41,870 nt of DNA, from IMG/VR virus record IMGVR_UViG_3300022745_000069, positions 1 to 41,870 of that record. One strand, written 5' to 3'. Below the pieces are notes generated by a model. That model saw only the letters and a program-made list of their open reading frames with translations. It made no database searches and had not been told where the DNA came from. This DNA comes from a virus. A program made the position numbers and the translations under genes. Positions 30,250-33,161 of this stretch are shown here, in pieces (position 1 is the stretch's first letter; each line of letters starts with the position of its first letter).

Positions 30250-30819
30250 ATGGAGAACACGCGTGCACGCGTGCTCACGACCGCCAACGCGGCGGTCAAC
30301 GGAGATCGTAACAACCAGTACGGGGACCCGCGGCAGGACTTCCGACGCACGGCCACGATGTGGACCGCACTGCTCGGCGAGAAGCTCGGGGACCACGCCA
30401 TCGAGGCGCACGAGGTGGCGCTCATGATGGCTCTGCTCAAGGTGAGCCGCCTCGCCTGGTCGGCCACGAAGGCGGACTCGTGGGTGGACCTCGCCGGCTA
30501 CGCGGCGTGCGGCGCCGACTGTGTCGACGGCCTGCAGGGCTGGCCCGAGGTGCGCACCGCACCCGAGCCCAAGGTCGAGCGCGGGGCCCGCCACAGGGCC
30601 CACCATGCCGAGGCCATCGTCGGCGACCTGATCGTGTCGAGCCTCTCCGGCGCGCGCTGGCGCGTCGTGGCGGTCGAGAGCCAGCGGAAGGCGACCATCT
30701 CGTATCTCGATGGCGACGGCCGCCACCAGAACGTCCCGATCGACCTCGATGACGACGCCAGCGAGCCGTGGCGCCTGTTCACGACGACGGGCCCTCGCGT
30801 GTCGGGCTTCCTCGCGTGA
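30250..30819 (+). CDS. DUF6378-like protein
   Basis: 189 aa with GGGAGGAA at 30236-30243. Residues 1-95 have the DUF6378 plan: LTTANAAVNGDRNNQYGDPR, QDFRRTATMWTALLGEK, IEAHEVALMMALLKVSRLAW and DSWVDLAGYAACGADC. Found in many phages and prophages near replication genes; its biochemical function is unknown to me. The helical plan with paired acidic residues recalls MazG-like folds. Residues 115-189 form a small added beta domain (GDLIVSSLSGARWRVVAVES). Confidence 0.75.
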   Translation: MENTRARVLTTANAAVNGDRNNQYGDPRQDFRRTATMWTALLGEKLGDHAIEAHEVALMMALLKVSRLAWSATKADSWVDLAGYAACGADCVDGLQGWPEVRTAPEPKVERGARHRAHHAEAIVGDLIVSSLSGARWRVVAVESQRKATISYLDGDGRHQNVPIDLDDDASEPWRLFTTTGPRVSGFLA

Positions 30820-31310
30820 ACGTCGTCGGGCTCGACCTCTCCCTCGTGGCCACCGGCGTGGCCTACTCCGACGGCACCACGGCCACCGTGAAGACCAAGG
30901 CCGAGACGCCGATCATGGAGCGGCTCGAATGGATTCGGACCCGGTGCTACGAGGCGGTGCGCATCGACGAGCACGCCGACCTCGTGGTGATCGAGGACTT
31001 CGTGGTCCTCTCGAACGCCTCGTCGTTGCTCGGCATGTTGCACGGCGTCGTCCGGCACAACCTGTGGGCGAACGACGTGCGGTGCCTGTTCATCCCGCCG
31101 TCCACGCTGAAGAAGTTCGCCACCGGCAAGGGCAACGCCACGAAGCCGGACATGCGCGTGGCCCTGAAGGACCGCACCGGCATCGACCTCCGCGACGACA
31201 ACCAGTGCGACGCGTACTGGCTGCGCCTTCTCGGCCTCCACCTGCTCGGTGAGCCCGCCGTGCAGCTCCCGCAGACGCACACCGATGCGCTGAAGAAGGT
31301 GGTGGGGTGA
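30816..31310 (+). CDS. RuvC-like Holliday junction resolvase
   Basis: 164 aa from GTG 30816 in a GTGA overlap. VVGLDLSLVATGVAYSDG gives the first acidic residue (Asp7) with the DxS pattern, LVVIEDFV gives Glu60, and DLRDDNQCDAYWLRLLG gives Asp128 and Asp132 in the last helix, as in RuvC-family resolvases (RNase H fold). HGVVRHNLWANDVRCLFIPP and LKKFATGKGNATKPDM are typical of the phage group. It would resolve recombination or replication junctions before packaging. Confidence 0.85.
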   Translation: MNVVGLDLSLVATGVAYSDGTTATVKTKAETPIMERLEWIRTRCYEAVRIDEHADLVVIEDFVVLSNASSLLGMLHGVVRHNLWANDVRCLFIPPSTLKKFATGKGNATKPDMRVALKDRTGIDLRDDNQCDAYWLRLLGLHLLGEPAVQLPQTHTDALKKVVG

Positions 31311-32449
31311 CCCTCACGGCCGCCACCGCGTGCTCGGGCATCGAAGGCATCGGCCTCGGGCTCGAACGGTGCGGCATCCCCATCGTGTGGAACTCGGAGA
31401 TCGAGCCGCACGCGAACGCCGTGCTGGCGCGGCACTGGCCCGATGTCCCGAACCTCGGCGACATCAAACTGATCGATTGGAGCACCGTTGAGCGGCCCGA
31501 CATCTTCGCCGCCGGATACCCCTGTCAGCCCTTCTCCCTCGCGGGCTCGCGTAAAGGTGAAGCGGACCCGCGTCACCTCTGGCCGTATGTGGCCCGAGCC
31601 ATTCGCGCGCTACGACCTCGCTTCGTCATCTTGGAGAACGTGCCCGGACACCGAAGCCTCGGGTTCGACGCCGTTCTCGGCGATCTGGCCGCGTGCGGGT
31701 ACGATGCTGAATGGGACGGCATACCAGCTTCCTCCGTCGGCGCCCGTCACCAGAGGGACCGTCTCATCGTTGTTGCCTACCCCCACGGCGGCACGGTACG
31801 GACGGAACCGGTCGGTGTCTTCCGGCGCATCGGATCGTCTCTCGCTGCAGCAGATGGCGTCGCGGGGCGAGTGGCCGGACCAACCGATGTGGCCGACGCC
31901 GCGGGTGTCGGCGGACTGCACGTCGGCGTGGGCGGCGAAGGACATCACGAAGCGGTCGAGCCCGAGCCTCGCTCAGGCGGTCGAGCTGGCCGCCGGAGTG
32001 CTCCCGCGGGAAGTGGAGAGCCTGGCGGAAGTGCCACCGTCGTGGGCGGCGTTGTGGCCTCAGGCGAGCGACCTGTGGCCGACGCCGATCGCGAGGGACG
32101 GACGGACACCGAAGGGCGCGGCGAGAATGCCGACGGCCGAGGGCTCGGACCCGCTGGCGGTGGTGGTCGGTGGGCCGTTGAATCCCGAGTGGGTCGAATG
32201 CCTCATGGGGTTCCCGCGTGGTTGGACGGCTCTTGGGAGCGAGACGTCCCTCGCTCCGCGCCTCGTGCGAAAGACGCACGGCGCCGGATCAAGGCCCTCG
32301 GCAACGCGTGCGTCCAGCAGGTCTTCGAGTACGTCGGGCTCTGCCTCATCGACGCCTTCGACCTCTACGACGAGATCGAGTTCGAGTCGGTCGAAGCCGG
32401 CGAGCTCGACGCCCTCCACGAAGCCGAAGGGGAAGCCGATGACGCGTAG
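31307..32449 (+). CDS. DNA (cytosine-5) methyltransferase
   Basis: 380 aa from GTG 31307 (GTGA overlap). C5-methyltransferase motifs in order: I TACSGIEGIGLGLERCG; IV GYPCQPFSLAG with catalytic Cys73; VI VILENVPG (Glu110); VIII VGARHQRDRLIVVAYP (Arg150-Asp-Arg152); and X IKALGNACVQQVFEYV near the end. The target-recognition region (about 165-310) is very Gly/Ala/Glu-rich but includes WAVESRVGRMPHGVP, a pattern I know from phage relatives. It may protect phage DNA from host restriction. No cognate restriction gene is in the window. A second reading frame across most of this gene also looks coding. Confidence 0.88.
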   Translation: MTLTAATACSGIEGIGLGLERCGIPIVWNSEIEPHANAVLARHWPDVPNLGDIKLIDWSTVERPDIFAAGYPCQPFSLAGSRKGEADPRHLWPYVARAIRALRPRFVILENVPGHRSLGFDAVLGDLAACGYDAEWDGIPASSVGARHQRDRLIVVAYPHGGTVRTEPVGVFRRIGSSLAAADGVAGRVAGPTDVADAAGVGGLHVGVGGEGHHEAVEPEPRSGGRAGRRSAPAGSGEPGGSATVVGGVVASGERPVADADREGRTDTEGRGENADGRGLGPAGGGGRWAVESRVGRMPHGVPAWLDGSWERDVPRSAPRAKDARRRIKALGNACVQQVFEYVGLCLIDAFDLYDEIEFESVEAGELDALHEAEGEADDA

Positions 32450-33161
32450 CGGCCTCTCCCACGGTGACGGCACCGAGGTGCTCGGCGCGGCGGCGTGGCC
32501 GTCGAACGGGCACGTGATCCGCGACGCTGCGCGCCTCGGGTTCATCCGCGAGGACGACGCCGTGCTCGACCTCACGTACGGCCGAGGCCTGTGGTGGACG
32601 CTCGTGAAGCCGCCGAGGTTCCTCGCCAACGACGTGCGCGCCGGGCAGGGCAACGTCGCCAACTCCGACCACAACGGCGAGCCCGTCTACTCGATGGACT
32701 ACCGCCACATCGACGTGGAGGGCTGGGGGCGGGCGTTCGACGTCGTGGCCTACGATCCGCCGTACGTGGCGATGGGCGGCCGCGAGACGTCGACGCTCGA
32801 CGGCGGCGAGTTCATGGACCGCTACGGACTCGACGACGCGCCGAAGTCGCCCGCCGAACTGCAGGCGCAGAACAACCTCGGGCTCGTGAACGCGCTGCGC
32901 CTCGTGCGGCCGAAGGGCTTCGTGCTCTACAAGTGCATGAACTACACGTCGAGCGGGAAGACGTTCATGGCCACGTTCGAGCTGCGCGACCTGCAGAAGG
33001 CGCTCAGCGCGGCCTACGCCGACACCGGCGAGGGCCCGACGTTCGAGGTCGAGACGTACTTCGCCCACGTGCTGCACGTGCGGCCCCAGCCGCCGGGCCG
33101 GCGACAGGTGAAGCCTCGGCGCAACGAGAGCTACCTGTTCGTGCTCAGGAGGACTCGATGA
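31587..33161 (+). CDS. Overprinted frame across the C5-methyltransferase, open into the next methylase
   Basis: From ATG 31587 (an upstream TTG at 31488 is possible), +1 relative to the methyltransferase frame. It reads YDLASSSWRTCPDTEASGST, PFSAIWPRAGTMLNGTAYQL, PPSAPVTRGTVSSLLPTPTA, WPTPRVSADC, LWPTPIARDGRTPKGAARMP, then VVVGGPLNPEWVECLMGFPR and GWTALGSETS. These are patterns of a recurring phage protein ('WPRsGtm.nGtaY', 'LWPTPta.d', 'G.LNP.WVEwLMGfP.gWT'). From about 32250 to 32438 the frame becomes Ser/Arg/Thr-rich, then continues without a stop into the adenine/cytosine-N methyltransferase at 32439. Translation of this frame is not proven; it could be made as a separate protein or as a fusion. 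Confidence 0.45.
   Translation: MWPEPFARYDLASSSWRTCPDTEASGSTPFSAIWPRAGTMLNGTAYQLPPSAPVTRGTVSSLLPTPTAARYGRNRSVSSGASDRLSLQQMASRGEWPDQPMWPTPRVSADCTSAWAAKDITKRSSPSLAQAVELAAGVLPREVESLAEVPPSWAALWPQASDLWPTPIARDGRTPKGAARMPTAEGSDPLAVVVGGPLNPEWVECLMGFPRGWTALGSETSLAPRLVRKTHGAGSRPSATRASSRSSSTSGSASSTPSTSTTRSSSSRSKPASSTPSTKPKGKPMTRSGLSHGDGTEVLGAAAWPSNGHVIRDAARLGFIREDDAVLDLTYGRGLWWTLVKPPRFLANDVRAGQGNVANSDHNGEPVYSMDYRHIDVEGWGRAFDVVAYDPPYVAMGGRETSTLDGGEFMDRYGLDDAPKSPAELQAQNNLGLVNALRLVRPKGFVLYKCMNYTSSGKTFMATFELRDLQKALSAAYADTGEGPTFEVETYFAHVLHVRPQPPGRRQVKPRRNESYLFVLRRTR
32439..33161 (+). CDS. Amino-methyltransferase (DPPY type, N6-A or N4-C)
   Basis: 240 aa from ATG 32439, overlapping the previous gene by 11 nt, with GAAGGGGA upstream. 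The SAM-binding motif I is AVLDLTYGRGLWW (41-53), and the catalytic motif IV is VVAYDPPYV (DPPY at 106-109), as in amino-MTases acting on adenine N6 or cytosine N4. Further, NALRLVRPKGFVLYKCM and EVETYFAHVLHVRPQPP are typical of the small phage group, which ends in a basic RRQVKPRRNESYLFVLRR. Tandem with the C5 enzyme, it suggests that two modifications are placed on phage DNA. Confidence 0.85.
   Translation: MTRSGLSHGDGTEVLGAAAWPSNGHVIRDAARLGFIREDDAVLDLTYGRGLWWTLVKPPRFLANDVRAGQGNVANSDHNGEPVYSMDYRHIDVEGWGRAFDVVAYDPPYVAMGGRETSTLDGGEFMDRYGLDDAPKSPAELQAQNNLGLVNALRLVRPKGFVLYKCMNYTSSGKTFMATFELRDLQKALSAAYADTGEGPTFEVETYFAHVLHVRPQPPGRRQVKPRRNESYLFVLRRTR

Follow-up and report, generated by a model that had tools for sequence, protein, structure and literature searches.

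Does the second reading frame of a viral cytosine methyltransferase gene encode a protein of its own and, if so, what is that protein? The gene lies in a window of 41,870 nucleotides (the whole stretch of DNA analysed here, taken from an IMG/VR virus record), where an initial annotation had read C5-methyltransferase motifs in one frame and, one base over on the same bases, the signatures of a recurrent phage protein. The frame 1 product is called alpha in what follows, and the product of the +1 frame nested within it is called beta. The features of the locus are collected in Table 1.

The alpha frame carries the motifs described for it (GYPCQPFS, LENV, LAACGYDAEWDGIP, VGARHQRDRLIVVAYP, WAVESRVGRMPHGVPAW and RIKALGNACVQQ). 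Its translation matched phrog_363 (7e-66) and, over residues 9-164, the Pfam family DNA_methylase (PF00145; 1.5e-35, 123.7 bits; cut-off, 22), with the catalytic PCQ loop, the ENV of motif VI and motif VIII present in the correct order. The alpha frame lacks motif IX, and its stretch from motif VIII to motif X reads as Gly- and Arg-rich. A C5-methyltransferase motif IX between the recognition region and motif X is found only if the +1 frame is counted (LNPEWVECLMGFPRGWT, in beta). The third forward frame over alpha contains six stops. A RuvC-like resolvase gene (30768-31310) lies immediately upstream and overlaps the GTG at 31307 with which alpha starts; a RuvC gene is likewise found near the methyltransferase pair of Paenibacillus phage Bloom.

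Table 1. Features of the nested methyltransferase locus, in window coordinates
Feature	Position	Strand	Basis or remark
Predicted alpha subunit gene, C5-cytosine methyltransferase catalytic polypeptide	31307..32449	+	GTG start; motifs I-VIII and X
GGAG, ribosome-binding-like site, 5 nt before TTG 31488	31479..31482	+	
Putative beta subunit, nested in alpha in the +1 frame, to the end of motif IX	31488..32228	+	phrog_1008 4.6e-25; shuffle test; start analysis
Beta N-terminal part over alpha motifs IV-VIII, constraint on both frames	31488..31774	+	Regional shuffles
Alpha motif IV, catalytic loop GYPCQPFS	31514..31537	+	Invariant G70 P72 C73 Q74 in alignment A2
Alpha motif VIII region GARHQRDRLIVVA	31739..31777	+	Alignment; boundary in the regional shuffle test
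Beta WPTP-repeat region, putative target-recognition region, alpha near passive shadow	31775..32171	+	Shuffles; phase shift in relatives
Beta motif IX region GGPLNPEWVECLMGFPRGWT	32172..32228	+	Alignments; relatives' copy aligns to M.HhaI motif IX
Low-complexity tail of the beta frame, stop-free, over alpha motif X; leads from beta into the next gene without a change of frame	32229..32438	+	
Alpha motif X region RRIKALGNACVQQ	32282..32323	+	Alignment
DNA methyltransferase with DPPY motif, same frame as beta	32439..33161	+	ATG 32439; phrog_24333 1.7e-7

Searched separately, the two translations each matched families of their own. Beta was indeed a recurrent phage protein, with matches to phrog_1008 (4.6e-25) and phrog_26627 (3e-7), and it had no match in Pfam or NCBIfam. 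The motifs of its frame are WPRAGTMLNGTAYQL, LPPSAPVTRGTVSSLLPTPT, MWPTP, LWPTPIA and GGPLNPEWVECLMGFPRGWT; across part of the last of these regions the alpha frame reads VGRMPHGVPAWLDG. In alignments, the block LNPxWVExLMGxPxGWT is the best-conserved portion of beta, and its L, N, P, V, E, L, M, G, P, W and T are invariant or nearly so. Some relatives have this block in the frame of motif X (L270, L262, L277 and others), and there a profile places LNPEFVEYLMGLPAGW...LGNGVVP on residues 271-308 of M.HhaI, LHPRECARVMGYPDSY...FGNSVV, which are motifs IX and X with IX just before X. The IX/X segment by itself scores 5.7 bits against M.HhaI, falling in order after a catalytic-domain match of 110 bits. 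Since the same residues of these relatives, in alpha's frame, align to motif IX of M.HhaI, the phage signature of the second frame is, judged from these alignments, the C5-methyltransferase motif IX that is missing from alpha. At the loci scorable with the pattern used, motif IX was in beta at 84, in alpha at 23 and in both at none, with 13 further loci returned as "other".

Structure models were made for beta and for L270, a relative whose alpha frame includes motifs IX and X. The L270 model had a confident catalytic domain and confident motif IX/X helices, with a disordered recognition region, and its fold search matched M.HhaI. The relatives thus resemble M.HhaI in the catalytic-domain fold and in the motif IX/X alignment, although M.HhaI is a single chain. 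Beta alone was modelled poorly (pLDDT 60) and was left out of the fold search, and a search of the PDB with its sequence profile gave no match at E<10. The position of the WPTP region between motifs VIII and IX, and its conservation, lead us to infer that it is the target-recognition region.

The identity of motif IX bears on a different view of beta, in which it is a regulatory or DNA-binding product of overprinting that stands outside the enzyme. The N-terminal part of beta has no known homologue and persists where alpha has motif IX, as such a protein might. However, beta itself bears motif IX, which C5 methyltransferases have and alpha lacks, and we regard a role outside the enzyme as improbable. 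An unrelated phage protein was rejected, the C-terminus of beta being motif IX. The overprinting proposed in the initial annotation therefore largely holds, but what lies in the second frame appears to be the missing part of the enzyme, its recognition region and motif IX.

A stretch that is open in two frames could also be explained by a single coding frame, alpha, with the +1 frame looking conserved only through alpha's motifs and a GC content of 70%, which holds frames open. Codon shuffles were used to weigh this explanation. When the synonymous codons of alpha were shuffled, the beta region acquired 2.3 stops on average and was stop-free in 3% of trials; the window has 0. With a beta profile built without the window sequence, the window scored 199.8 bits compared to 78.8 ± 9.9 bits for the alpha-synonymous shuffles (z = 12), and none of the 100 shuffles reached its score. 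The 79 bits still obtained after shuffling mean that part of the signal is shadow. In the reverse test, alpha scored 206 bits compared to 50.9 after shuffling of the synonymous codons of beta, and was above every shuffle. The beta score exceeded all the alpha-synonymous shuffles in 191 of 191 loci. The nested class in the large set was defined by an open beta frame, and the zero stops there are partly by construction; the profile test on the window and the set of loci found through alpha are free of this selection.

The two frames are not constrained alike along the overlap. Over alpha motifs IV-VIII, the window's beta scored 127.4 bits against 84.0 for the shadow (z 5.2) and its alpha 153.3 against 50.3 (z 8.8), so that the conservation claimed earlier for both frames goes beyond a passive shadow here. 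From motif VIII to motif IX, beta scored 85.1 bits against 1.8 (z 19), while the excess for alpha was small (39.6 against 29.7; z 2.5). Substitution tests were made on relatives; close relatives of the window were not found. Among 33 non-overlapping close pairs, differences in the flanks of the overlap fell mainly at alpha codon position 3 (55% before it and 60% after), and those in the recognition stretch fell mainly (41%) at beta position 3, equivalent to alpha position 1. In the same pairs, the position-3 rate dropped from 0.341 to 0.195 per site over motifs IV-VIII. Protein identity in 179 window-type pairs was 36% for alpha and 44% for beta in the recognition stretch, compared to 74% and 53% in the motif stretch. 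The overlap is under selection in both frames, most strongly at motifs IV-VIII and weakly for alpha in the recognition stretch. Since the substitutions of the relatives peak at the third codon position of beta there, beta is the constrained frame of the recognition stretch and alpha is nearly its shadow. The passive-looking frame is alpha's, not beta's.

These synonymous shuffles in both directions, together with the codon-phase counts, led us to reject alpha as the sole coding frame. Also against it are the maintenance of the nesting at 35-45% GC, the ribosome sites found at beta starts beyond expectation and the lack of motif IX in the alpha of nested loci; we give it almost no chance of being correct. 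Stops in relatives and shadow-like substitution, which had been named in advance as grounds for doubting the second frame, were both examined, and coding in that frame was not refuted.

The initial annotation began the second frame at 31587. The frame is real, but its start appears to lie upstream of this position and is most likely the TTG at 31488, which is favored because it is the sole candidate start with an SD-like site (GGAG). The ATG at 31587 has no SD-like site. The TTG of the window is a weak start, and its SD is only 4 nt. In the relatives, SD-like sites stand ahead of beta starts at 142 of 186 loci, compared to 62.5 expected from synonymous shuffles. Beta residues could also be reached by a programmed frameshift in which ribosomes leave the alpha frame for the +1 frame once past motif VIII, which would give a single chain with motifs I-VIII, the recognition region and motif IX. 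The frame change after motif VIII falls where such a shift would be required, and at some loci (L004, L118) the recognition region, IX and X are all in the +1 frame. We nevertheless consider a frameshift unlikely to be the explanation: motif X of the window lies back in the alpha frame, and two shifts would be needed; beta is constrained beyond the shadow upstream of any shift point (bN z 4.8); and SD-like sites precede the beta starts. The SD enrichment, the GGAG of the window and the constraint on the beta N-terminal part favor independent initiation of beta instead.

The nested pair is not confined to the window. Queries with alpha alone, where beta played no part in the selection, found 136 viral loci, with a full nested beta at 104, a partial one at 31 and none at 1. 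In an earlier set of 184 loci, found mostly through beta, beta was nested in the +1 frame of alpha in 172. After dereplication there were 191 alpha/beta pairs overall, many of them of moderate or low GC, and nesting was also seen at 35-45% GC, a composition at which frames do not easily stay open. Bacterial records with the pair include Paenibacillus, Myxococcales, Planctomycetota, Synergistaceae, Bradyrhizobium and Micromonospora. Both ORFs are annotated in some phage records (Bloom BLOOM_56/57, K1ind2 ORF28/29), and alpha alone is annotated in phage N15. This is a known but little-noticed kind of enzyme, with a rare bacterial example on record since 1995, yet the arrangement occurs commonly among phages and bacteria, for the most part without annotation.

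Four layouts were distinguished among the relatives. In the first, that of the window, alpha has motifs I-VIII and X and beta has the recognition region and IX. In the second, alpha has I-VIII and beta has the recognition region, IX and X (for example, Streptomyces phage Sebastisaurus, L004, and Brevibacillus, L118). In the third, alpha has I-VIII, IX and X, and beta has the recognition region only (for example, L262, L277 and L283, at 43-47% GC). Beta in this layout keeps its N-terminal part and WPTP repeats and ends a few codons before motif IX; it is stop-free, and its conservation there exceeds that of alpha (55% vs 43%; 46 of 55 pairs). In the fourth, part of the recognition region is in the alpha frame along with IX and X (for example, Moonbeam, L003, and Pelosinus, L115). 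The loci assigned to the third layout are L262, L271, L277, L280, L283, L285, L286, L289 and L294. At L118 (2238-3522), L048, L097 and L138, motif X is in the beta frame and the alpha frame is filled with stops after motif VIII. With these four loci as a natural control, the comparison suggests that the alpha frame stays open past motif VIII just to reach motif X.

With a probability of about 85%, we read the locus as one two-subunit C5-cytosine methyltransferase of the M.EcoHK31I kind, to which beta would supply the recognition domain and motif IX. Alpha would form the catalytic, AdoMet-binding domain with motifs I-VIII and X. Beta, from its own start within alpha, would give the target-recognition region, with its WPTP repeats, and motif IX; docking on alpha is the probable role of its N-terminal part. 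Neither subunit would be active by itself, and the pair, for whose proposed association we also cite PMC5944983, would rebuild a normal two-domain enzyme. Together they would methylate a specific DNA site, which may serve the phage in restriction protection or a similar use. The motif content, the nesting, the constraint on two frames and the ribosome-site enrichment at the beta starts of relatives are the parts of this model that can be read from the DNA. Beta may do more than the model says, since its N-terminal part persists where motif IX is in alpha.

The window is like M.EcoHK31I in having motifs I-VIII and X in the larger subunit and IX in the smaller one, and its beta lies in an overlapping, different frame (nested +1); the two EcoHK31I reading frames were reported by Lee et al. 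in 1995 to overlap as well. Split C5 methyltransferases of such a division are known enzymes (PMC3404938). In M.EcoHK31I of E. coli, which recognizes YGGCCR, the larger subunit has motifs I-VIII and X and the smaller has IX, and a review places its predicted recognition domain in the larger subunit (PMC3404938). The window and its relatives, in contrast, are constrained in beta between motifs VIII and IX. We treat this mismatch as a difference in reading, the placement in the review being a prediction and the enzymes having been compared by description. M.AquI (CYCGRG) is split after motif VIII into two polypeptides, alpha and beta (PMC3404938). Sebastisaurus L004 and Brevibacillus L118 look to be of the M.AquI type. 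The window differs from M.AquI in that its motif X is in alpha and not with motif IX in the small subunit, and in that its beta overlaps alpha along the entire conserved length.

Among phages, the pairs of Paenibacillus larvae phages (such as Bloom BLOOM_56/57), annotated as two DNA cytosine methyltransferases, have the same nested +1 layout and motifs as the window. They differ in their GC of 43%, in a stop soon after beta motif IX and in having no downstream fusion. Beta is also nested in the +1 frame of alpha in Escherichia phage K1ind2 (ORF29, C-specific methylase; ORF28, Mte8-like) and in N15 (gp58), with sequences distant from those of the window. Our literature searches found no description of the nested arrangement in phages beyond papers on split enzymes, nor one of the breadth of the family or of the layout with a recognition-only beta. 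We lean somewhat toward a large family of phage and bacterial nested-frame C5 methyltransferases, in which the +1 frame holds all or part of the recognition domain, small frame shifts transfer motifs IX and X from one frame to the other, and beta sets the target; it would include the undescribed layout of I-VIII, IX and X with a recognition-only beta (L262, L277, L283).

If this is true, the target specificity predicted from the annotated methyltransferase ORF would be wrong for this nested-frame family. If the two-subunit reading is correct, the annotated ORF expressed alone would be inactive, and the specificity would be located in an unannotated frame. Many records retain just one of the overlapping ORFs, so that a phage C5 methyltransferase is logged as one protein that lacks motif IX or whose recognition domain is meaningless. 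The family also holds many natural long same-strand overlaps with enzyme motifs in either frame, which are useful for tests of how overlaps originate and are resolved.

Another question is whether beta is joined to the methyltransferase downstream. As stated previously, the second frame is open through 32439; there is no stop before the next gene, and the frame stays open to 33161. If translation from 31488 occurs, it predicts a fusion of up to 557 residues. The functional product of the second frame could then be an obligate fusion of beta and the downstream methyltransferase (31488-33161, 557 aa) with two activities, since a ribosome on beta would continue across the stop-free junction into the next gene. 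We find this doubtful. The 216-base tail is stop-free in 49% of alpha-codon shuffles, an outcome expected about half the time, and matching frames arise by chance 1 in 3. The tail also consists of low-complexity sequence that shadows alpha motif X, and among the 191 relatives just a few extend far beyond the alpha stop. A conserved fusion was rejected because chance gives such an open tail about half the time and few relatives share the run. Thus, the fused protein that the initial annotation had considered is possible through a missing stop at 70% GC, but it is not conserved in relatives, and the continuation of the open frame into the downstream methyltransferase is probably a coincidence. 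At L127 and L152 (Micromonospora and Actinoplanes), the beta frame runs for more than 400 codons past the alpha stop, as in the window.

Some relatives have a stop codon in the catalytic loop of alpha. In L321-L346 and L348 (IMG/VR) and in the MAG locus L169, the loop reads GFP-stop-L-CQP, with variants in L134, L143 and L138. The insert is a stop codon plus CTN placed exactly between the Pro and the catalytic Cys (e.g. CCG TAA CTA TGC CAA). The 27 viral contigs affected include 18 distinct TAA contexts, with TAG in L346 and L348, and the stop in L169 is TGA. When a pattern allowing any codon at the inserted place was used, a stop was present in 27 of 28 matches. The flanking motifs and the nested beta are open in nearly all of these loci, and alpha is constrained over motifs IV-VIII (z 6-10). 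TAA, TGA and TAG are employed as ordinary stops in the same contigs. The stops in the active-site loop suggest recoding or other means of crossing a stop; we found no explanation for them. Stops in alpha were also seen at L183, on a Bacteroides finegoldii plasmid, where two lie in frame in the N-terminal half of alpha, and beta and the remainder of alpha are open.
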